This document shows positions 48,859 to 60,397 of a stretch of DNA of 64,000 nt, one piece after another (the first letter of the stretch is position 1; every line of letters starts with the position of its first letter). The stretch comes from Synechococcus sp. UW105. GTDB taxonomy: Bacteria; Cyanobacteriota; Cyanobacteriia; PCC-6307; Cyanobiaceae. The notes under the pieces were generated by a model. The model was not told where the DNA came from, made no database searches, and saw nothing but the letters and a program-made list of their open reading frames with translations. Both the position numbers and the translations under genes were made by a program. The stretch covers positions 124,001 to 188,000 of the forward strand of contig NZ_UCNN01000019.1 in assembly GCF_900473935.1 (NCBI RefSeq). Reading direction: 5' to 3'.

Positions 48859-48936
48859 GCCTGACGGAGTGCGCACCCTGCCGGTGTAAGCTTCCTCACG
48901 TCGATTGACTGGCTCAAGGGCCCAGCCATCGACCAT

Positions 48937-49009
48937 GGGGCCATAGCTCAGCTGGTAGAGCACCTGCATGGCATGCAGGGGGTCAGGAGTTCGAGTCTCC
49001 TTGGCTCCA
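48937..49009 (+). tRNA. tRNA-Ala (GGC anticodon)
   Basis: Seventy-three nucleotides fold as a cloverleaf. The acceptor stem is GGGGCCA/TGGCTCC with one G-T pair and discriminator A. The anticodon stem CCTGC/GCAGG encloses the loop ATGGCAT, which gives anticodon GGC. The T-arm holds GTTCGAGTC. CCA is not encoded. The 3' half from the anticodon loop is the attachment site of the element that follows. Confidence 0.95.
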
Positions 49010-49012
49010 TTC
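48968..49012 (+). repeat. Left attachment site (45-bp direct repeat, in tRNA-Ala)
   Basis: The sequence from the tRNA anticodon loop through the 3' end plus TTC is identical over 45 bp to 57931-57975. It is the left end of the integrated element. The tRNA stays complete because the element supplies the 3' half. Confidence 0.93.
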
Positions 49013-49155: not shown

Positions 49156-50475
49156 ATGCCTCAGCAGAAGTGGTTCGCCCGCCTTCGTGGGCAGATAAAA
49201 GACAGGTGTGGACTGGGTTGGGGCATCGCTGATCGCAACGGTGATACCCAGCTCACCCGCCGCATCAATGATGGAAAGCAGCACCAGAACCCGCGGCAAT
49301 CGGTGCAGCTGGGGGTGCCATGGAACCCGGCCTGCAGCGGGGATATTTTTTTGAAGGTCTGCCAGCTCAAGCAGCTGGTGGACGAGCGCCACTGCTCGCT
49401 GGCCGAAGCCAAAAAAAAGCTAGATGCGAAGGACAGCGCCACCCCCACCATCACCCGGTCGGTGGATGACGAGGACAGCGGCTGGGACGCCGTCATCGGT
49501 GGCTTCATCGACAAGCGACGGCAGATGAACCGCGCCACAACTATGCGCGACCTGAACGGCCACATGAAGCGGGTGCGGAAGACCCTGGAGAAGAAGCCAC
49601 GCCCCCAGAGCGGAGCGGACTTGATGAAGGCTTATGCCCGGCAGCATTTCAAGAATTGCCGCCCCGGTGGATCAGGTCGGGTGGTGCAGCTCAATAATGT
49701 CCGTGCGCTGCTTCGCTACGCGATCAAGGAATACGGCTACGACAGCCGCTGGAAACCGCTGGATAACGATGACCTGCGGGACTTGATCGGTACTGACGAC
49801 AGGCCCACTGAGGACAAGCTGACGCCACCGATGATGCCCAACGATCTGGGCACCCTGCTGGATGCGCTGAGGGATGCCGATAGAACCAGCCTGCTGCTGC
49901 TGGCGGGGATCATCGGCATCTACGGCTTGCGTCCTCATGAAGTCGCTCAGCTGATCTGGGACGACGGGCATCTGAAGGTCAGACCCGGTGGCAAACGGAA
50001 CAAAGCCACCCGCGGCAAGAAGCAAAAGAACAGGTTGGTGCTGCCCTTCGACGTTCCTGGCAGAGAAGGCGAAGGGGAGCGTCTTGTGATGCTCTGGCGC
50101 ACAGGCACGATTCGCTTTCCTCAGGCCGTCCTGAACCGCATCAACGAAGTTGAAATGAAGGGCTTCAAGCCTGTGGGGGATGAGATCCGGCAGCAGCTCG
50201 AACGCTTCAAGTTCTGGCAGGGGTTGGCGGCCATCAACCCCGGTTTGATCCCGTACAGCCTGCGGCATGGTTGTGCTTATCGGATGCACAAGTCCTATGG
50301 CCGCCCGTTATCCATTAGGGATGCTGCTGCGCTGCTCGGGCACACCCCGCAAGAGCACCACGCCAGTTATGGACAGTGGATTGATGAAGCTGGCTTGATT
50401 GAGGCTGTCGAACGGATTACTGGAGCAGGTAGGACAACTTTGGAGGGGATACCTTGTCACCCCTTGACCTACTAA
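49156..50475 (+). CDS. Tyrosine recombinase (site-specific integrase)
   Basis: 439 residues from ATG 49156. The frame is open back into the tRNA, but no start with a good context lies there. Catalytic residues in order: Arg259 (GLRPHEV), Tyr367 in place of the usual His with Arg370 (PYSLRHG), His396 (LGHT) and the nucleophile Tyr405 (ASYGQW). The N-terminal part (1-100) is a divergent arm-binding region and residues 110-200 a core-binding domain. It should catalyse integration into tRNA-Ala. It is transcribed away from the tRNA, into the element. Confidence 0.92.
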   Translation: MPQQKWFARLRGQIKDRCGLGWGIADRNGDTQLTRRINDGKQHQNPRQSVQLGVPWNPACSGDIFLKVCQLKQLVDERHCSLAEAKKKLDAKDSATPTITRSVDDEDSGWDAVIGGFIDKRRQMNRATTMRDLNGHMKRVRKTLEKKPRPQSGADLMKAYARQHFKNCRPGGSGRVVQLNNVRALLRYAIKEYGYDSRWKPLDNDDLRDLIGTDDRPTEDKLTPPMMPNDLGTLLDALRDADRTSLLLLAGIIGIYGLRPHEVAQLIWDDGHLKVRPGGKRNKATRGKKQKNRLVLPFDVPGREGEGERLVMLWRTGTIRFPQAVLNRINEVEMKGFKPVGDEIRQQLERFKFWQGLAAINPGLIPYSLRHGCAYRMHKSYGRPLSIRDAAALLGHTPQEHHASYGQWIDEAGLIEAVERITGAGRTTLEGIPCHPLTY

Positions 50476-50725: not shown

Positions 50726-50974
50726 GTGCCTGAACATGAATGGCTGCCAACCCCGGCAGCAACAAAAGCCATGGGCTACAGCGCCCGCACGCTGAAGCGT
50801 TATCGCGACTGTAACGGCGGCTTCCTGATTGCTGGTGAGGATTGGTGCTTCGGACCAACTGGTGCCAGCTCAATCAGCTGGAACATCACTACCTGCCGTC
50901 AGAAATTTCACGAGCGTGGGCGTCTTATGCTCGCTATCGATGCTGAGCGTAAACAGCTTGCGGAGGTGGACTGA
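50726..50974 (+). CDS. Excisionase-like small DNA-binding protein
   Basis: 82 residues from GTG 50726. EWLPTPAATKAMGYSARTLKRY resembles the winged-helix start of Xis/MerR-like excisionases, and WCFGPTGASSISWNITTCRQKF resembles the wing seen in such phage proteins. It lies next to the integrase and overlaps the following gene by one base (TGATG). It likely directs excision, but a purely regulatory role is possible. Confidence 0.6.
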   Translation: MPEHEWLPTPAATKAMGYSARTLKRYRDCNGGFLIAGEDWCFGPTGASSISWNITTCRQKFHERGRLMLAIDAERKQLAEVD

Positions 50975-51228
50975 TGCAGAGCTATGAAGTCACCTACGAA
51001 ACCATGATTTCCGCGAAGGTAACTCTTTCAACTCAAATTGAGAGAGAACTTCGTCGCGACTGCGAAATCGAGTGTGGTGAGGAAATCGATGAGTGTTTCG
51101 CCTCTGATTATTTGGATGAAGTAGCTCAGGCCATCAACGAAATGATCAAGCTGCCCGAGAACTTCAAAGCGGCTAATGGGTGCCGCGTCGCACTGGAAAT
51201 CAATTCAATCTCAACGGAGCAACAATAA
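50974..51228 (+). CDS. Acidic hypothetical protein of the element
   Basis: 84 residues, ATG overlapping the stop of the Xis-like gene. The product is acidic, with amphipathic strands and a helix (ELRRDCEIECGEEIDECF, then YLDEVAQAINEMIKL). Five Cys/Met-containing positions give no recognised motif. No family known to me. Position suggests an accessory replication or regulation protein. Confidence 0.6.
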   Translation: MQSYEVTYETMISAKVTLSTQIERELRRDCEIECGEEIDECFASDYLDEVAQAINEMIKLPENFKAANGCRVALEINSISTEQQ

Positions 51229-51230
51229 AA

Positions 51231-52301
51231 ATGACCTCGAACCGAATAACGGCCCAAGGTCACGCCCTGCCAAGGAGTGACCGCAGGCTAAGCGAGCCCC
51301 TGCTGTTTGGGCAGGGGGTCACACGCCCAGGAGACGTTCCTACGCCTGCGATTTGGTGGCCGACGGGCCGTCACTATGCGCAGAACAGTGCGCAGAATTT
51401 CATCTTCGACATCGGCCAGGCGCTGACCTGGGCCGAACTCCTGGGGAAGGATCCCACGGGAGCTGACACCCGCATCAGAGCCATCCGCCGTGGCGAGGGA
51501 GCCAAGAAGGGCAACCTCGCCGAAGACTGCGAGCAGATCCCCGGCTGGCAAGTCGAAGGCCGCAACATCTACGCCGTACCGAATGGTGGTGGCGACACCG
51601 CTGACAGCATCGATGCCTGTGTTGGTCTGTTCGCTGAGTGGGATCACCTGAGCCTGGCGGAGCAGCTCGAACTGCCTGCTCAGCTGGGTCTGCCCTCACC
51701 CACCTTCGGCCTGTTCACCGGAGGCAAGAGCCTTCACGTCTACTGGGTGTTCGAGCAGCCGATCGAGGTGGCTCGGTGGCGGCCGTTGATGCAGCGACTG
51801 ATCAATCACTGCGGCAGCGATCCTGCGGTGAAGGACCCCAGCCGGTGCATGCGATTGCCCGGTGCCTGGTACATCCGCATGGACAGCAGGGTTGGGGATA
51901 AGAGCACACTCCTGAACATCACCGGCGACCGGTTCACTCCAGAGCTGTTCGAGGAGCTGCTGCCCCCGTTGCCGGAACGCCCGCGTCACATCCCGAAGTC
52001 GCTTTATCGCAAGCAGCCGACGCGGTCGCTGCAGGACATCGCCGATGCGTTGAAGCTCATCCCGCCACGGGTACCGGGACACGGCAATTACCCGGTGGAT
52101 CGGAACATGGCCTGGGGCCTGAAGGCTGCCTGCCGCGACGCTGGGTACGGTACGGATGTGGCTCGGAAACTACTCGAAGCCCACAGCCCTAACGGTTGGG
52201 ACCCCGACCAGATCCTCCGCTCTGGAGGTGATCAGATCAGTGCTGGGACGTTCTGGTTGCGAGCCCAACAGCACGGCTATGTGAGGCACGCTGATGGATG
52301 A
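51231..52301 (+). CDS. Primase-polymerase-like (AEP/RepB-type) replication protein
   Basis: 356 residues from ATG 51231. The centre has AEP-like motifs: acidic GLFAEWDH (Glu136, Asp138), then FTGGKSLHVYWVF (Gly164-His169, nucleotide-binding) and DPSRCMRLPGAW (possible motif III). This order is typical of primase-polymerases and RepB-type primases in phages and satellites. A C-terminal region with HGNYPVDRNMAWGLKAACR resembles the PriCT-like tail. It overlaps the next gene by 8 bp. It probably primes replication of the excised element. Confidence 0.65.
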   Translation: MTSNRITAQGHALPRSDRRLSEPLLFGQGVTRPGDVPTPAIWWPTGRHYAQNSAQNFIFDIGQALTWAELLGKDPTGADTRIRAIRRGEGAKKGNLAEDCEQIPGWQVEGRNIYAVPNGGGDTADSIDACVGLFAEWDHLSLAEQLELPAQLGLPSPTFGLFTGGKSLHVYWVFEQPIEVARWRPLMQRLINHCGSDPAVKDPSRCMRLPGAWYIRMDSRVGDKSTLLNITGDRFTPELFEELLPPLPERPRHIPKSLYRKQPTRSLQDIADALKLIPPRVPGHGNYPVDRNMAWGLKAACRDAGYGTDVARKLLEAHSPNGWDPDQILRSGGDQISAGTFWLRAQQHGYVRHADG

Positions 52302-53721
52302 CCTGCAGGCTGTAGTGGACCACTGCTCCACCATCCCGGACGAAGCGATCATGGATGCTGCCAAGAGCATTCGGGTCGCTCAGGGCCGCGAGCGATTCGG
52401 TTTTGAGAACCTCTTGCCTACCGATTTGGCGAGGGCGGTGGAGCTAGTGACGGAGGTGCTGCCTGCTGATGCATTGACCAGTGTTCTGACGCTGCTCTGC
52501 GGTTACAGCGGCCTGCTCAAGCTCGGCACCCAGGTGACGCCGGATGGTCGCTACTGGGTCCCCTGCAACCTTTACGTGGGGTTGGTGGGGCCGAGCGGTT
52601 TGAGCAAGAGTCCAATCCAGAAGGCCCTCATTTCCGATCCATCCCGGCAGCTTCAGCAGGAAGAGAAGGTTCGGTATGACCTGCTGCTGAAGGTATGGGA
52701 GGACTCCGAACCACAAGACAGGGAGAAACATCCTCCCCGCCGGTGCCCGCTGCATCAGAACGAGTTCTCCCCGGAGGCGCTCGGGATGTGGCTGCAGTTC
52801 TACGAGCAGGCTGGCCTTGGTGTTCTGCTGACCCGCGCTGAATTGAGCGGGATGTTGCGGGCGCTTGAGGCAGACACTCGGCGTGGCAGGGGTACCGCTG
52901 AAGCTCAATTTTTAGAGTCCTATGACGGTGATGGCTGCTGCTCGCACCGTGTCGGTAAAGCCGGTACGGGGGAGGTGCGGAGCTATTCCAGTTGCCACGT
53001 CTCCCTATTTGGCGGCGTCCAGGACGAGGTACTCCGCGAGTTGGTCAATGGGTCGGACGCCAGCGGTAAATTCGCCCGGATCCTGATGGTGAAGTGCCCC
53101 CGCCGACCGCTGGAGTTGAAGGACGATCCGATTACTCCAGAGGAGGACGAGGCGTTTCTTCGAGCGGAACGGGTCTTGGCCTTCTACGCCCGTCAGCTGT
53201 ACGAGCTGCCGCCCCGTCGGTATCGACTCAGAGCAGAGGCTCGCCGCCATCTGAACGGCTGGTTTCGCGCCCACCAGCTGGAGGCGCTCAAGCCTTCAAC
53301 GCCGTCGGTCATCTCAGCAATGCTGGGTAAGACCAGCGCAAATGCACTTCGGTTGGCAGGGCTCCTCCACCTCGTTTGGACCAAGGGGGATTCAGCCACC
53401 GAGATCAGTCTGGATTTGATGCAGGCGGCCACCGCAATGGTGGATCAGGTCGTCTCGGAGACGCGGGAGTTCCACCAGCCCCCGGAGAGCATCGGCACCG
53501 AACTGATGCGTCACATCCATTCCCTCAGCTGGGAAAACGATGTTCTGAAGCAGGACCTGATCACCTGGCAGGACGCCAAGAACAAGGGCTCCAAGCGCAT
53601 CCGTGATTGTGGTGCGAACGGTTTTAAGAAGGCCATCGACACGCTGGAGGAGAGGGGGCTGGGTGAGTGTCTCAAGGCCGGTTCGGTCCCGGCCTTCAGG
53701 GCCCGAAAACCCTGGCCTTAG
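52294..53721 (+). CDS. DUF3987-type helicase/primase-associated protein
   Basis: 475 residues. A P-loop-like motif VGLVGPSGLSKSPIQKAL (Lys105-Ser106) is followed by LLTRAELSGMLRAL and FLESYDGDG, matching DUF3987-like ATPases common in phages and satellites next to primases. The C-terminal part holds a helical domain and a likely winged helix (KRIRDCGANGFKKAIDTLEERGL). It overlaps the primase gene, so the two act together in element replication (inference). Confidence 0.75.
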   Translation: MDDLQAVVDHCSTIPDEAIMDAAKSIRVAQGRERFGFENLLPTDLARAVELVTEVLPADALTSVLTLLCGYSGLLKLGTQVTPDGRYWVPCNLYVGLVGPSGLSKSPIQKALISDPSRQLQQEEKVRYDLLLKVWEDSEPQDREKHPPRRCPLHQNEFSPEALGMWLQFYEQAGLGVLLTRAELSGMLRALEADTRRGRGTAEAQFLESYDGDGCCSHRVGKAGTGEVRSYSSCHVSLFGGVQDEVLRELVNGSDASGKFARILMVKCPRRPLELKDDPITPEEDEAFLRAERVLAFYARQLYELPPRRYRLRAEARRHLNGWFRAHQLEALKPSTPSVISAMLGKTSANALRLAGLLHLVWTKGDSATEISLDLMQAATAMVDQVVSETREFHQPPESIGTELMRHIHSLSWENDVLKQDLITWQDAKNKGSKRIRDCGANGFKKAIDTLEERGLGECLKAGSVPAFRARKPWP

Positions 53722-54050: not shown

Positions 54051-55133
54051 ATGCATCGGTCCCTGAGCCTTTCTTTATCGCTGAGCGGTGTTGCAGCACT
54101 CGCACTCTCCAATGGCGCTCTGCTGTCTGCTGCTGCACAAGACGTTGGCAGCGCAGAAGATCTCGGGGTGATGGAGATCAACCTCAAGGATGCAGTCAAG
54201 TTCAACTGGGGTTTTCAAGGAGCACTGCAAGGAGCAGGCACACCGAATCAAGCAGGTATAGGCGGGTTCTTGCCCCTGTCTGTTGGCGAGAACAGTGTGT
54301 TCTTTGCTGATGTACTGCTCAATGCCAACTTTGCTGATTACGGCGGCAACAGCAGCATCGTCAATACAGAGGTTGCTGGCACAACGATCAGTACCTCATC
54401 AAGGCTTGGCTACCGCTGGCTGAATAGCGACCGCAGCTGGATGTATGGCGTGAACGGCGGCTATGACAGCAGGCCGATGAATACAGGCAATGCTGAAACA
54501 GGTGTCACGCTCTACGACAAGGAAAGTGCGTTCTTCCAGCAGATCGCAGCAGGTTTAGAAGCAGTATCAGATTCCTGGAACTTCAATGCCTATGCCTTAA
54601 TCCCTGTTGGTGATACAGAGCAGCAGCTAAATAGAGCCTTTCAAGGCGGCGCGCTTGATACCTATGGGCTTGATGTTGGTTATGCAATCACTCCAGAGTG
54701 GGATGCCTCAATTGGTTACTACTACCAAAGCGGTGATCTAGGTACAGCAGACGGATCTGGCGTGCAGGTAGAGATGGATTATCAGATCGCTGATGGTTTA
54801 ACTGCTGGCATCAATGTTTCCTATGACGAAGAGTTTGAAACCAGAGTGTCAGGCAACATTGAGTATCGCTTTGGTAGTAACAGTTCAGTGGCAGAAACGA
54901 AGAAAAAAGCATGGCAAAAGCCAACGATTCAAGCCTTATCTGAAAGCATTAAAAACAGAAATATCCGCGTTCATGATGCAGCAGGTTCATGCCCAATTAA
55001 TGCCATATGGCATCCAGGCCATAAGCCAATCACAAAAAAGCCAAAGTCATCTACGACGTGGGTAACCTACAACCTATGTCATTGTAGCCCTGGCGCAAAA
55101 AATGCAACCGCTAACGGCTGGGAACCCGTTTGA
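54051..55133 (+). CDS. Outer-membrane beta-barrel protein, inverse-autotransporter-like
   Basis: 360 residues with a signal peptide ending near LLSAAAQ. Residues 40-285 are alternating amphipathic strands (FFADVLLNANFADYGG, RLGYRWLNSDRSWMYGVNGG) as in the N-terminal barrel of intimin-type (type Ve) proteins. The block LSESIKNRNIRVHDA (about 304-318) resembles the conserved NRN-I linker after such barrels. Only about 43 residues follow, Cys- and Lys-rich, so the passenger is missing or tiny. Surface display or a porin role is possible. It lies directly upstream of the peptide precursor genes. Confidence 0.7.
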   Translation: MHRSLSLSLSLSGVAALALSNGALLSAAAQDVGSAEDLGVMEINLKDAVKFNWGFQGALQGAGTPNQAGIGGFLPLSVGENSVFFADVLLNANFADYGGNSSIVNTEVAGTTISTSSRLGYRWLNSDRSWMYGVNGGYDSRPMNTGNAETGVTLYDKESAFFQQIAAGLEAVSDSWNFNAYALIPVGDTEQQLNRAFQGGALDTYGLDVGYAITPEWDASIGYYYQSGDLGTADGSGVQVEMDYQIADGLTAGINVSYDEEFETRVSGNIEYRFGSNSSVAETKKKAWQKPTIQALSESIKNRNIRVHDAAGSCPINAIWHPGHKPITKKPKSSTTWVTYNLCHCSPGAKNATANGWEPV

Positions 55134-55286: not shown

Positions 55287-55553
55287 ATGTCAGAAGAACA
55301 ACTCAAGGCATTCATCGCAAAAGTCAAAGGAGATATCAGCCTTCAAGAGAAGCTCAAAGCTGCAGCTAATCCTGATGATGTTGTGGCGCTTGCTAAAGCT
55401 ACTGGCCTTATGATTTCCGCTGACGATTTGAAGAAAGATCAAGCGGAGATTTCGGAAGAAGAGCTCGAAGTCATTTCTGGCGGTGGCTGCGGCGCGTGGA
55501 GCATTAAGTCTGTTGGGACATATCAATGCCAGGGAAACCCTCAAGATGGATAA
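55287..55553 (+). CDS. Prochlorosin-like lanthipeptide precursor 1 (Nif11 leader)
   Basis: 88 residues from ATG 55287. Residues 1-66 are a Nif11-type leader (MSEEQLKAFIAKVKGD) ending ISEEELEVISGG, a double-glycine cleavage site. The core after Gly66 has Cys68 and Cys81 and three dehydratable residues, Ser72, Ser75 and Thr78, allowing up to two thioether rings. This matches ProcA precursors of marine picocyanobacteria, which a ProcM-type LanM synthetase modifies in trans. No such enzyme is in this window. A terminator follows. The product would be an exported cyclic peptide. Confidence 0.85.
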   Translation: MSEEQLKAFIAKVKGDISLQEKLKAAANPDDVVALAKATGLMISADDLKKDQAEISEEELEVISGGGCGAWSIKSVGTYQCQGNPQDG

Positions 55554-55601
55554 TATAAGCATTGGCAGCCTATAAACTAGTCTTCAATATTTTGCACCAT
55601 C

Positions 55602-55624
55602 GCCCGTATTCAGCGGGCTTTTTT
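55602..55624 (+). terminator. Terminator after precursor peptide 1
   Basis: GCCCG and CGGGC stem with a 7-nt loop, followed by six T. It lies 49 bp past the stop codon, so each precursor gene is a separate transcript. Confidence 0.85.
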
Positions 55625-55652
55625 ATTGCTTGCTGACATCGCTGCCGTCGCT

Positions 55653-55660
55653 TGCTATGA
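55653..55660 (+). promoter_or_regulatory. Extended -10-like element before precursor peptide 2
   Basis: TGCTATGA, 31 bp before ATG 55684, mirrors the element before precursor 1 in sequence and spacing, suggesting co-regulation. Confidence 0.4.
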
Positions 55661-55683
55661 CTATTGGAGCGAACTGTTGAGCC

Positions 55684-55920
55684 ATGCCAGAAGAGCAACT
55701 TAAAGCGTTCCTAGTACAGGTTAAAGGCGACAGCAGCCTCCAGGAAAGACTCAAAGCTGCAGCTAATCCTGATGCTGTAGTTTCTATTGCTAAGGAAGCA
55801 GGATTTATGATTTCTGCTGATGACATTAAGAAGGCTCAATCAGAGATTTCAGAAGAAGAGCTGGAAAGCGTGGCTGGTGGTCAACGAACTCATTGTTTGG
55901 CCAGCCAATGGGCAATGTAA
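55684..55920 (+). CDS. Prochlorosin-like lanthipeptide precursor 2 (Nif11 leader)
   Basis: 78 residues. The leader (MPEEQLKAFLVQVKGD...ISEEELESVAGG) matches precursor 1 at roughly 48 of the first 66 positions by eye, whereas the cores are unrelated. The core after Gly66 is only 12 residues with Thr69, one Cys (Cys71) and Ser74, so at most one thioether ring can form. The conserved leader with a hypervariable core is the hallmark of the prochlorosin family. The own promoter-like element and terminator make it an independent unit. Confidence 0.85.
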   Translation: MPEEQLKAFLVQVKGDSSLQERLKAAANPDAVVSIAKEAGFMISADDIKKAQSEISEEELESVAGGQRTHCLASQWAM

Positions 55921-55964: not shown

Positions 55965-55988
55965 CCCCTGTTGTTTTAGGGGCTTTTT
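55965..55988 (+). terminator. Terminator after precursor peptide 2
   Basis: CCCCT and AGGGG stem with an 8-nt loop, then C and five T, about 45 bp past the stop. Confidence 0.85.
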
Positions 55989-56295: not shown

Positions 56296-56472
56296 TCATT
56301 CCACGAGATCACCCATGGTGGGGCCACCAAATGCACCAGAGATGCGGTTGATAGGGCCAAGAGGAGTAAAGCCAACGACACCGTTGACAACGACCTTCCA
56401 GAAGCCGCCGCCTTGCACAGCCTCCAGATCGTCTTCGTTGATGTTCTGAGCGTCAAAAGCTTGAGTGGTCAT
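56296..56472 (-). CDS. Double-glycine leader peptide, bacteriocin-like
   Basis: A 58-residue frame with a short acidic leader (MTTQAFDAQNINEDDLEAVQ) ending at Gly21-Gly22-Gly23, as in peptides cut and exported by C39-peptidase ABC transporters. The 35-residue core begins FWKVVVNGVVGFTPLG and is hydrophobic and Gly-rich, with no Cys, resembling unmodified class II bacteriocin/microcin-like peptides. The leader is not of the Nif11 type, so it differs from the two neighbouring precursors. A terminator follows 30 bp downstream. No immunity or transporter gene is next to it. Confidence 0.65.
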   Translation of the reverse strand: MTTQAFDAQNINEDDLEAVQGGGFWKVVVNGVVGFTPLGPINRISGAFGGPTMGDLVE

Positions 56473-56623
56473 GAGTTTGAAGTGAGTTGAGTGAGTGATG
56501 TGTGGGGGTGTTGCCCCCTCGACTCCTTCAAGATCACAGCTCTATTGGTGAACCCCAGTGCCTGGATGTGGTGGGGAAGCAGGCAAGTTCTGGTGAAGCT
56601 CTGGTGAACGGTTCAGAACCCAG

Positions 56624-56700
56624 TCACCAACTGGGCTGACAACGCTGCCAACCTGCTTTCTGCATGGTCTCCCAGGCTTCGATTGCTTTGCACACTCGGA
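56624..56700 (-). pseudogene. C-terminal remnant of a DUF1651 gene
   Basis: The minus strand reads VCKAIEAWETMQKAGWQRC and ends Gln-Pro-Ser-Trp-stop, almost the same as the end of the intact DUF1651 gene at 57120-57383. No full-length frame exists upstream. Flanking blocks (near 56514 and 57018) are also shared, so this is a duplicated fragment that has decayed. Confidence 0.65.
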
Positions 56701-56776
56701 TGATGGTCAGATGGTCTGCCCACCAAGAAACGAATTCATTTCAGGCATTAAGCGTGGTATCTGCGACACTAATGGC

Positions 56777-57010
56777 ATGAAACGACTCCTACTTTTACTG
56801 CCATTCTTGCTTGCAGCACAGCCAGCAACGGCTCAACAGGATCCCAACCACTGTGACTCAATGGTTAGGGCTGCCATGCAGGGATATCAAATATCTAAAG
56901 ACACGCCATGCATTGACGTAAGTGAAGGAGACTGGCCGAAATCAGCCAAATATTATTCAAAATTTGAGTATTTCTGTATAGGTCGTGAAAGAAACCCAGG
57001 CTGCAGTTAG
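56777..57010 (+). CDS. Small secreted Cys-containing protein
   Basis: 77 residues from ATG 56777. A classic signal peptide (MKRLLLLLPFLLAAQPATAQ) is followed by about 57 mature residues with four Cys (DPNHCDSM, TPCIDV, YFCIG, NPGCS), enough for two disulfides. No family recognised. It could be a toxin, immunity or surface factor, but nothing in the sequence decides this. Confidence 0.6.
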   Translation: MKRLLLLLPFLLAAQPATAQQDPNHCDSMVRAAMQGYQISKDTPCIDVSEGDWPKSAKYYSKFEYFCIGRERNPGCS

Positions 57011-57422: not shown

Positions 57423-57779
57423 TCAGAACCTAGTGCGGTGTGTAACCGTTGAGTTGACGCCTAAACCAGTCATCCAATCCAGCTGACGCACACAGCTCAC
57501 AACCGCTCCAGGGTTCTTCTGCTTCATTGCTTGACCAGCTGCGGCCATCAGCGTTTGGATCGACCATGCCAACATCTCCTCCCGATCAATCCCGGTCTTA
57601 TCGACGTCGGCCTTGATCTGAGCCCATGCTCGTTTCAGGAGCTTGTAGCCCTGTGCCCTTGAGATACCCCACTGCTGTCTCGCGAATTCGAGACAAGCTG
57701 TATTTGGTTCACCAGCAAGGAGCAGCCCCTGGAGCTGATCAATCCGACTAGTGGTCTCTTCCGTAGTGGCGCGTGCCAT
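57423..57779 (-). CDS. Possible terminase small subunit / DNA-binding protein
   Basis: 118 residues. The N-terminal part has a helix-turn-helix-like pattern (ACLEFARQQWGISRAQGYKLLKRAW), followed by helices (REEMLAWSIQTLMAAAGQAM) and GAVVSCVRQLDWMTGLG. Small terminase subunits of phages and satellites have this size and layout, and its position at the far end of the element matches satellites that redirect packaging. The match is by pattern only; another small DNA-binding protein is possible. Confidence 0.5.
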   Translation of the reverse strand: MARATTEETTSRIDQLQGLLLAGEPNTACLEFARQQWGISRAQGYKLLKRAWAQIKADVDKTGIDREEMLAWSIQTLMAAAGQAMKQKNPGAVVSCVRQLDWMTGLGVNSTVTHRTRF

Positions 57780-57930: not shown

Positions 57931-57975
57931 ATGGCATGCAGGGGGTCAGGAGTTCGAGTCTCCTTGGCTCCATTC
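57931..57975 (+). repeat. Right attachment site (45-bp direct repeat)
   Basis: Identical over 45 bp to the 3' half of tRNA-Ala at 48968-49012. It lacks the 5' half of the tRNA, so it is not a second tRNA gene. It marks the right boundary of the element. Confidence 0.93.
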
Positions 57976-58498
57976 GATTTCCCAAGTTGCTCACTGGTTT
58001 CTGCGCTGGTGGGCATTTTGATTGACCTGTCCTGATCAGCAGTCGTAAAGCAGTACCGCACGCTGCTCTCGACTCTCCACGTCGCTCTCTTTCATCTGCG
58101 ACTCGTCGTAATCCAAAGCCCGCAAAGGGCAGGCCGTAGCGCGGAACGGCTGATGCCTCCCATCGTGGATCCACTCCCCAACTGGCTGGCCATGGGCCGC
58201 ATCAATAGGCATCTCAACGATGCAACATCATGACCTCTGTATCTCTGCTGAAGGGACCCGACAGCGCTTTGTCAGCAGTTCCCATTCTTGGCTTCATGCC
58301 AAAGAAGGGGCAGGATCTCGTTGACTGGCGCCACTTGACGGACGACTCAATGCGCAGAAGTCAATCAAACGATCGGTTATTTGATAGGAACGCAATCCTC
58401 TTCGGTTAAACGCGTGACCTCCTGCTTTGTGGTGCTGAGCTGCCCGAGGGGATGGTGACCGGTCGGGCTTATGTGTGCGCGTTCCTAGGTGTGTAGCC

Positions 58499-58615
58499 AT
58501 GCTGATTCCACAAGTGTCGCTTGACGATGAAGTGAGGCCTGGCATGACTTGCGCTGTGTTGCAGTACCGCATTGATCAGCTCAAGCGGCTTGGTTGGCCA
58601 AGGCCGATCGAGTGA
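58499..58615 (+). CDS. Possible 38-residue protein
   Basis: ATG frame with a plausible composition (MLIPQVSLDDEVRPGMTCAV, then LKRLGWPRPIE). No ribosome site is obvious. It may be the tail of a degraded gene. Confidence 0.3.
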   Translation: MLIPQVSLDDEVRPGMTCAVLQYRIDQLKRLGWPRPIE

Positions 58616-59125
58616 GCAAACGTGTTCGACTACGCAGCTCAGCAATATGGCGGGATACTTTGTAAGTTAAGATCGATTTTATGGGTATCCGCATCGCATT
58701 GAGTATCTCAATGTCTGATGGGATGCTGGATTTCTGGTCTCAACGAAACTAGTTGGAGCTCGCAATGTTCCAGGGGGGAAGGTCAGTCGGACAACATTTT
58801 CGTCTTATGAATGTATTGGCGATCAGTCGAGATCGCCCATTAAAATTCAGGTTAGAGTGAATATCAATGATTCAAATGCCTTCTTTTGACTTGGAAGGGT
58901 AATTGTATTCGCGTTGAAGGTCGAAGTACACATGTTGTTGGCCTCAGTTCTGGATTGGTCTGTCTAGCTGAGGGAAGGCTTCTGAGAGTTCAAAAAGAGC
59001 AGGTGGTTGATGCAGAAAGCAAATTGAACGACCACGAGTAATTGGTTGGGGCTGTGTGATGGAAGGATGCATGGCTCCGTGGAAGGCATGGCCGTTGGGG
59101 TGGCCTACTGTGATGAGTCGCCATC
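58616..59125. other. AT-rich stretch with no recognised gene
   Basis: About 510 bp with lower GC than its surroundings, and no frame that looks coding on either strand. It contributes to the eroded look of the second element. Confidence 0.5.
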
Positions 59126-59150
59126 AAAAAGCCCCCGCCGAAGCAGGGGA
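59126..59150 (-). terminator. Terminator after the RTX gene
   Basis: On the minus strand CCCCTGC, TTCG loop, GCGGGGG then C and five T. It lies about 40 bp past the stop of the RTX gene. Confidence 0.85.
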
Positions 59151-59186
59151 GGGCATTGCTTTAATCTAACTATTATTGACCTGTGG

Positions 59187-60170
59187 TCACCATAAAGGAT
59201 CTCTGGTGATGACATTTTCGTCGATATTCAAGTCGTCAACATTGGCATTGTTGACGAGTGCGAGCATGTCGTCACCCTGCATAAGAACTACAGATGTGCC
59301 AAAGTTGAACATCCCAAAGTCTTCGCCAATCCCAGCTCCGGTGACGACGATTTTGTCATTTCCAATGCCGAAGTCCTTGATGTGGTCAATGCCAAAACCT
59401 TCTGTTAGGAAAAAGGTGTCTCCGCCTTGCCCCCCAAATAGATCGTCAAACCCCCTGCCTCCAATAATGAAATCATCGCCACGCTCGCCTCTGATTTCAT
59501 CGTTGCCATCTAGGCCAAGAATGACATCATTGCCAGATCCTGATCTCACATTGTTGTTGCTTTCGTTTCCGATGATCAGGTCGTTCCCTTGACGAGTAAT
59601 CACATTTTCGATGCTCGTCAATTTATCTCTTCCCTCTCCTGTATTTTGCCAATTTTGATTGGAAAGATTGATTGTATATCTCGCCCTTGATCTGGCAGTG
59701 CCAAAAATTGCTGTATCTGTTCCTTCGCCACCATCAATTACATCATTGCCAACTCCGCCAGCAAGTTGATCGTCATCTTCTCCGGCATAAAGAAAATCAT
59801 TGCCTTCGTCGCCACGCAAGTAGTCGTTTCCGCGGCCGCCAAAGGCTCGATCATCACCTGTGCCACATAAAAGGCTATCGCCCCCTCTGCCGCCTACAAG
59901 AACATCGTTTCCATCACCACCCCATGCTTGCCCACCACCACCACGTAAAAACAACCAGTCATTACCCCCTTCTCCGTGAATTGTCTCCCAACCTTCGTCA
60001 GATCCGAAGATCACATCGTCACCATCACCTGCTTCAATCCAAATTTGCGGGTTCCGTCCATTTCTCCTGTATCGTGCACGATCGTCTCGCTCGTAGTCAT
60101 AAAAGTCGTCGCCATTTGTTCCCAGAACAGACAAGGTGTTGTACTGCCTGTTGTATGTTTTTGAAATCAT
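59187..60170 (-). CDS. RTX (hemolysin-type calcium-binding) repeat protein
   Basis: 327 residues made almost entirely of nonapeptide GGxGxDxux repeats: GEGGNDWLFLRGG, GGRGNDYLRGDEGNDFLYAG, GVGNDVIDGGEGTDTAIFG, GERGDDFIIGGRGFDDLFGG. These form Ca2+-binding beta-rolls. The C-terminus is typical of type I secreted proteins, with no signal peptide. No catalytic domain is seen, so it may be a surface or extracellular structural protein. It stands alone in the putative second element and has its own terminator. Confidence 0.9.
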   Translation of the reverse strand: MISKTYNRQYNTLSVLGTNGDDFYDYERDDRARYRRNGRNPQIWIEAGDGDDVIFGSDEGWETIHGEGGNDWLFLRGGGGQAWGGDGNDVLVGGRGGDSLLCGTGDDRAFGGRGNDYLRGDEGNDFLYAGEDDDQLAGGVGNDVIDGGEGTDTAIFGTARSRARYTINLSNQNWQNTGEGRDKLTSIENVITRQGNDLIIGNESNNNVRSGSGNDVILGLDGNDEIRGERGDDFIIGGRGFDDLFGGQGGDTFFLTEGFGIDHIKDFGIGNDKIVVTGAGIGEDFGMFNFGTSVVLMQGDDMLALVNNANVDDLNIDENVITRDPLW

Positions 60171-60369
60171 GAGATTGGTTTTGTTGATTGGGATCGGAGA
60201 TGCTATTCCGACAGATTCACCATGCCTTCAATCAACCAATGCTTAAGTGAATTAGTTCATGTTGGGCTGTGATTCTTCTCACAAGAGCTGACAGGGGCTT
60301 CAATCCAAAGGTTCAATTCCAGCTACTGCAACTGTTGACCTGTCACAAAGACCAGGGTTCTTAGGGAAT

Positions 60370-60397
60370 AGGAGATCGAGTCTCCTTGGCTCGATTC
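60370..60397 (+). repeat. Third, diverged attachment-like copy
   Basis: AGGAGATCGAGTCTCC and the following TTGGCTCGATTC match the tRNA-Ala 3' end at 26 of 28 positions. The upstream part is lost. It is likely the right end of an older insertion at the same tRNA gene. Confidence 0.7.

Follow-up and report, generated by a model that had tools for sequence, protein, structure and literature searches.

How do lanthipeptide precursors come to lie apart from the enzyme that would finish them? The stretch of DNA analysed here (the window, 64,000 nucleotides of the marine Synechococcus sp. UW105) raises this question through two short genes, procA1 and procA2, which resemble the precursors of prochlorosins. 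To our knowledge, prochlorosins are without known function, and we know of no explanation of how some strains came to dozens of precursors per enzyme. A preliminary description of the locus proposed that a mobile element delivers precursors without enzymes and thereby exploits the enzyme of its host. Our answer is similar in outline: the two genes are probably the cargo of an integrative element that carries precursors only, their products being modified and exported by the machinery of the host.

A bounded element at tRNA-Ala(GGC)

Contig C29, which contains the window, belongs to a genome of 2.66 Mb (31 contigs, 99.9% complete). The mobile element suspected around the precursors can be delimited: it is 9.0 kb long and bounded by exact 45-bp direct repeats of the 3' part of tRNA-Ala(GGC). 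An integrase gene adjoins the tRNA, and direct repeats of the tRNA 3' end stand at both ends, as is characteristic of integrative elements. The features, in window coordinates, are as follows.

48936-49010, plus strand: intact tRNA-Ala(GGC), into which the element is inserted, marking its left end (ARAGORN; Rfam RF00005, 1.2e-12)
48968-49012, plus strand: attL, 45-bp repeat, exact match to 57931-57975
49156-50475, plus strand: tyrosine integrase (phrog_1 integrase, 6.6e-11; weak PF00589; relatives in 132 of 400 family genomes)
50726-50974, plus strand: small protein after the integrase, conserved in related elements, perhaps an excision factor (no family match in Pfam, phrog or NCBIfam)
51180-52301, plus strand: primase-like replication protein (phrog_36873 DNA helicase, 8.7e-28)
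52294-53721, plus strand: DUF3987 helicase-like protein (PF13148, 4.2e-35; phrog_2373, 3.8e-13)
54051-55133, plus strand: putative outer-membrane barrel with a variable C-terminal tail, inverse-autotransporter-like (12 predicted strands, low confidence; Foldseek; hypervariable tails)
55287-55553, plus strand: procA1, prochlorosin-type precursor, core GCGAWSIKSVGTYQCQGNPQDG (PF07862, TIGR03798; core relative adjoining a LanM in genome G246)
55602-55624, plus strand: terminator-like hairpin 3' of procA1
55684-55920, plus strand: procA2, prochlorosin-type precursor, core QRTHCLASQWAM (PF07862, TIGR03798)
55965-55988, plus strand: terminator-like hairpin 3' of procA2
56296-56472, minus strand: third short peptide with a double-glycine leader, not Nif11 (from its sequence; a similar region lies 5' of comparable peptides)
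56711-57010, plus strand: small protein with a signal-peptide-like N-terminus (from its sequence; no family match in Pfam, phrog or NCBIfam)
57423-57779, minus strand: helical protein of phage type, 118 aa, at most similar to small terminases (matches in 82 of 400 genomes)
57931-57975, plus strand: attR, 45-bp repeat, exact match to 48968-49012

The integrase start at 49156 is inferred from relatives, the frame being open from 48973. The middle part of the element holds its cargo: the barrel protein, procA1, procA2, the third double-glycine peptide and the small secreted-type protein. Searches of the element with Pfam, phrog and NCBIfam recognised no modifying enzyme, transporter or protease. 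Apart from the tRNA at the left end, no structured RNA was found that would bear on the cargo; a Trp_leader match was weak and below threshold. A region of 130-190 bp 5' of the third double-glycine peptide (56473-56690) recurs at 74-88% identity in this and other genomes, where it precedes short double-glycine peptides, some Nif11 precursors and small secreted proteins (loci L093:461-608, L099:5304-5477, L179 and L188), as if one promoter region served the whole peptide set.

The two ends of the element have their closest matches in different genomes, the integrase end in Synechococcus sp. AG-670-A05 (91% DNA identity) and the attR end in G301 (87%), the ends being modular. No similarity that would mark an empty site or a shared right flank was found among the relatives. 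Behind the element, at 60370-60397, stands a third att-like copy, now degenerate, which points to an earlier insertion. The stretch between attR and this copy (57976-60397) encodes a 327-aa RTX-like repeat protein on the minus strand (59187-60170); the related element of genome G193 has an RTX-like protein too.

Could the element be a dead remnant, immobile, with both precursor genes simply part of the resident set? The degenerate att-like copy and several decayed relatives indicate that elements at this site often decay. However, the 45-bp repeats are exact, the integrase is full-length with its GLRP, LRHG and YG stretches conserved, the primase and helicase frames are open, and an integrase 91% identical occurs in another species. 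We therefore think a dead remnant unlikely, and present-day mobility is what we would predict.

The 118-aa protein near attR has no family match by name. Its structure matches reach 3.6e-4 for phage DNA-binding proteins, while small terminases score E = 0.1 or worse, which is not significant; the small-terminase identity first suspected from its sequence is at most a resemblance. The protein (also at L240 and L315) is widespread near attR of such elements and sometimes adjoins barrel genes. A viral origin of the element or of its procA genes was considered and rejected: at the sensitivity used, no relatives were found in either IMG/VR or phage records.

Two precursors with unrelated cores

The products of procA1 and procA2 (88 and 78 amino acids) both match the Nif11 family in a Pfam profile search (E = 8.8e-17 and 8.3e-17). 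Both also score far above the cut-off of TIGR03798, the NCBIfam "Nif11-like leader peptide family RiPP precursor" (6.1e-23 and 4.3e-26). Each leader ends in a double glycine, as expected of a prochlorosin. The cores that follow contain Cys together with Ser/Thr and are unrelated between the two paralogs, which is also expected: GCGAWSIKSVGTYQCQGNPQDG in procA1 has two Cys and three Ser/Thr, and QRTHCLASQWAM in procA2 has one Cys and two Ser/Thr. Coordinates, profile matches and residue counts all agree with the first account of two Nif11-leader, double-glycine precursors with different cores. The leaders had also been called nearly identical, which they are not: they share only 70-73% identity, and the leader of procA2 is nearer (78%) to that of L002, another precursor in the same genome, than to that of procA1.

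Each gene is followed by its own hairpin, and the DNA upstream of procA1 is similar to that preceding other precursors in the same genome. For these reasons procA1 and procA2 are probably each a transcription unit of their own.

A single LanM elsewhere in the genome

Which enzyme would act on these peptides? A single LanM is encoded in the genome, on contig C2; it scores 763 bits against the LanM model. Its SWCHG and LCCGSLG stretches supply three zinc-binding Cys and the CCG motif, making it ProcM-type, as a prochlorosin system requires, and with the LanM of genome G071 it shares 58.5% identity. Two further precursors lie beside it, as do genes for an HlyD-like protein and a C39-peptidase ABC transporter. 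About 17 prochlorosin-type precursors are spread over many contigs of this genome. The procM/lanM gene and the C39-peptidase exporter that the preliminary description had proposed looking for elsewhere in the genome are thus both there, side by side, and the genome lacking LanM that it had named as a refutation is not what we find. Its phrase "far from any LanM" stands insofar as the element contains none, the sole LanM lying on a different draft contig (C2 versus C29). As a separate observation, this genome has a second integrase, at tRNA-Arg(TCT) (G000:C11:113562-119144, L092), which is followed about 4 kb downstream by a double-glycine Nif11 precursor with four Cys in its core.

The series of events that we propose runs as follows. 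The element would insert at tRNA-Ala(GGC) through its own tyrosine recombinase, after which procA1 and procA2 would be transcribed as separate units. The host's single promiscuous ProcM-type LanM would bind the Nif11 leaders and, acting in trans, would dehydrate and cyclise the cores, and a C39-peptidase ABC transporter of the host would cleave after Gly-Gly and export the product. Since the element lacks a finishing enzyme and the host has one promiscuous enzyme of the right kind elsewhere, such peptides probably pass from cell to cell and make use of the host's machinery.

Relatives of the cores and their cysteines

Among 140 distinct precursors, the core of procA1 has one clear relative, GCSPWSINSVGTFGCL in genome G246, from another species, where it adjoins the LanM. 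The two cores align with a score of 62 (shuffled sequences, 32.9 +/- 3.9) and have the spacing C-x3-S-x2-S-x2-T-x2-C in common. In G246 a second precursor comes next, in the same order as in the element, and the two-gene stretch has 71% DNA identity over 600 bp. This core match and the alignment of both genes suggest that the precursor pair came into the element from a cluster with LanM, without the enzyme. The core of procA2 has no significant relative among the same 140 precursors.

Do Cys-bearing cores go together with the enzyme? A LanM was detected in 27 of the 400 genomes. Cys is present in 110 of the 119 cores from LanM-bearing genomes versus 5 of the 16 from LanM-less ones; the p-value of 1e-7 is a guide only, given non-random sampling and related sequences. 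These findings bear on the idea that procA1 and procA2 are not lanthipeptide precursors and encode linear peptides or serve another Nif11-related role. In these genomes Nif11 domains are indeed present in several further protein families, and the procA2 core is short, with one Cys. We nevertheless regard the idea as very improbable in view of the leader profile with its double glycine, the kinship of the procA1 core to a LanM-adjacent precursor, and the correlation of core Cys with LanM presence.

Recurrence of precursor cargo in related elements

The integrase relatives in the 132 family genomes mostly adjoin tRNA-Ala(GGC) where they are close, and those with names come from Synechococcus, Cyanobium and Prochlorococcus. 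Precursors recur beside them. In the one-contig chromosome of G289, 60-bp tRNA-end repeats enclose an integrase, a primase and seven precursors; in that of G265, the att repeats of a tRNA-Ala element enclose one. Two draft genomes hold decayed elements: in G312 (Synechococcus sp. AG-679-A04) two precursors come after a decayed integrase of the same type, 88% identical, and in G120 a broken precursor comes after a helicase, 76% identical, and an integrase that has decayed. G295 (AG-679-C18) has an integrase at tRNA-Pro, with a precursor and a barrel-protein homolog behind it. Related elements without precursors exist as well (G181, G071), so precursors are not obligatory cargo. G289 is rich in such genes generally: its 3.3-Mb chromosome encodes two LanM enzymes and, at a first look, 272 Nif11 candidates, and more than 25 tandem precursors occupy one 13-kb stretch of a 20-kb locus (L188).

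G193 offers the case of a host lacking a full-length LanM. Its one-contig chromosome of 2.44 Mb has no LanM match, and a second model found only a 400-aa ORF weakly similar to the dehydratase domain. At 1,543,552 the integrase, xis-like, primase and DUF3987 genes stand in the same order as in our element, and about 5 kb beyond them lies a precursor whose core, GRGCSQVCIGAAAGGIDVSY, has two Cys. The element adjoins a tRNA-Ala remnant, and its right end is not mapped. The other close precursor in G193 has no Cys. The simplest reading would be that cores retain Cys where LanM is present and that the copy in the G193 element is a recent arrival.

Might such elements just pick up a common island gene at random, the cargo being neutral and the exploitation of a host enzyme never selected? 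In the flexible regions of LanM-bearing Synechococcus procA genes are common, numbering dozens per genome, and many lie outside such elements, which would make chance capture easy; many related elements carry no procA, and precursors in islands were already known (PMC7522525). However, several elements carry procA cargo, a LanM-less host has a Cys-bearing copy that is intact, and the spacing of the procA1 core is conserved. Hitchhiking of this kind is possible, in our estimate, but somewhat unlikely. It bears on the word "exploit", which implies a benefit to the element and to which the hitchhiking of already abundant island genes is the alternative. The enzyme-free element, the host LanM and C39 exporters, the recurrence and the presence of one such element in a host without full-length LanM all stand behind the delivery of precursors without enzymes. 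Taken as a whole, the proposed logic of precursor delivery by an enzyme-free element is partly supported, and better so than sequence alone had allowed, with modification, export, transfer and any benefit to element or host as its predictions.

The barrel protein next to the precursors

The barrel protein encoded upstream of procA1 follows a similar design. The best Foldseek matches of its model (pLDDT 45.6) are the beta-domains of invasin and intimin; the Pfam IAT_beta match is below cut-off, and only the short tail could serve as a C-terminal passenger. The family is multi-copy, with 4 matches in this genome and 21, partly tandem, in G075. Identity is high up to the motif NR[DN][VI]RVHD and about 15% beyond it; one copy elsewhere in this genome is 96% identical but has a different tail. 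The tails are 9-81 amino acids long, with an even, non-zero number of Cys in 23 of 27, none in 3, and an odd number in one, that of this element (3 Cys). Members were seen at loci L283, L315, L316 and L318, and the family also occurs inside other tRNA-Ala elements. The barrel family and the prochlorosins share one constant-variable design, on one element. It is tempting to speculate, although we hold this doubtful for now, that the tRNA-Ala family is a dedicated vehicle for variable peptides, namely host-ProcM-dependent prochlorosins and surface barrels with hypervariable, Cys-paired tails, the enzymes being left to the host.

Significance and comparison with known systems

Precursor-only elements, if real, would explain how precursor libraries spread and turn over without transfer of the enzyme, and how precursors become stranded in LanM-less hosts. 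The att-bounded cargo is also a defined unit that could be deleted or moved in asking what a single prochlorosin does.

The closest known systems are the prochlorosins and synechococsins (ProcA/SyncA with ProcM/SyncM), which share the Nif11 leader, the GG site, the hypervariable core and one unlinked ProcM-type LanM. Their precursors are scattered away from ProcM, with recombinases, integrases and transposases near them, and 3 of 12 precursor-bearing strains have no LanM (PMC10783134). Enzyme-unlinked procA genes near integrases have therefore been reported already. Here two precursors lie within a bounded element whose att sites are mapped and which has replication genes and relatives of its own, rather than merely near recombinases. 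Our literature search, which left key subscription papers outside, found no description of a bounded element with precursor-only peptide cargo.

Small phage satellites (PICI-like, VEIME) resemble the element in size, in integrase and primase/helicase, and in the small phage-type DNA-binding protein before attR; they differ in that no relative of this element was found in the viral collections (IMG/VR, phage records), and the likeness of its protein to small terminases is weak. In Prochlorococcus LLIV, lanthipeptide genes lie in strain-specific islands, which the available part of the source presents as shared gene sets and not as elements with an integrase and att sites at their borders (PMC7522525). 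Integrase islands at tRNA-Phe and tRNA-Cys in Prochlorococcus and Synechococcus likewise combine a tyrosine-type integrase with variable cargo, at other tRNA sites, and the accessible text mentions no precursors among that cargo (PMC10187409). The tycheposons of Prochlorococcus, compared here through a second-hand description, are likewise cargo elements of picocyanobacteria at tRNA genes with a tyrosine recombinase (PMC10872708); in that description their cargo is nutrient genes, whereas the element described here carries peptide precursors.
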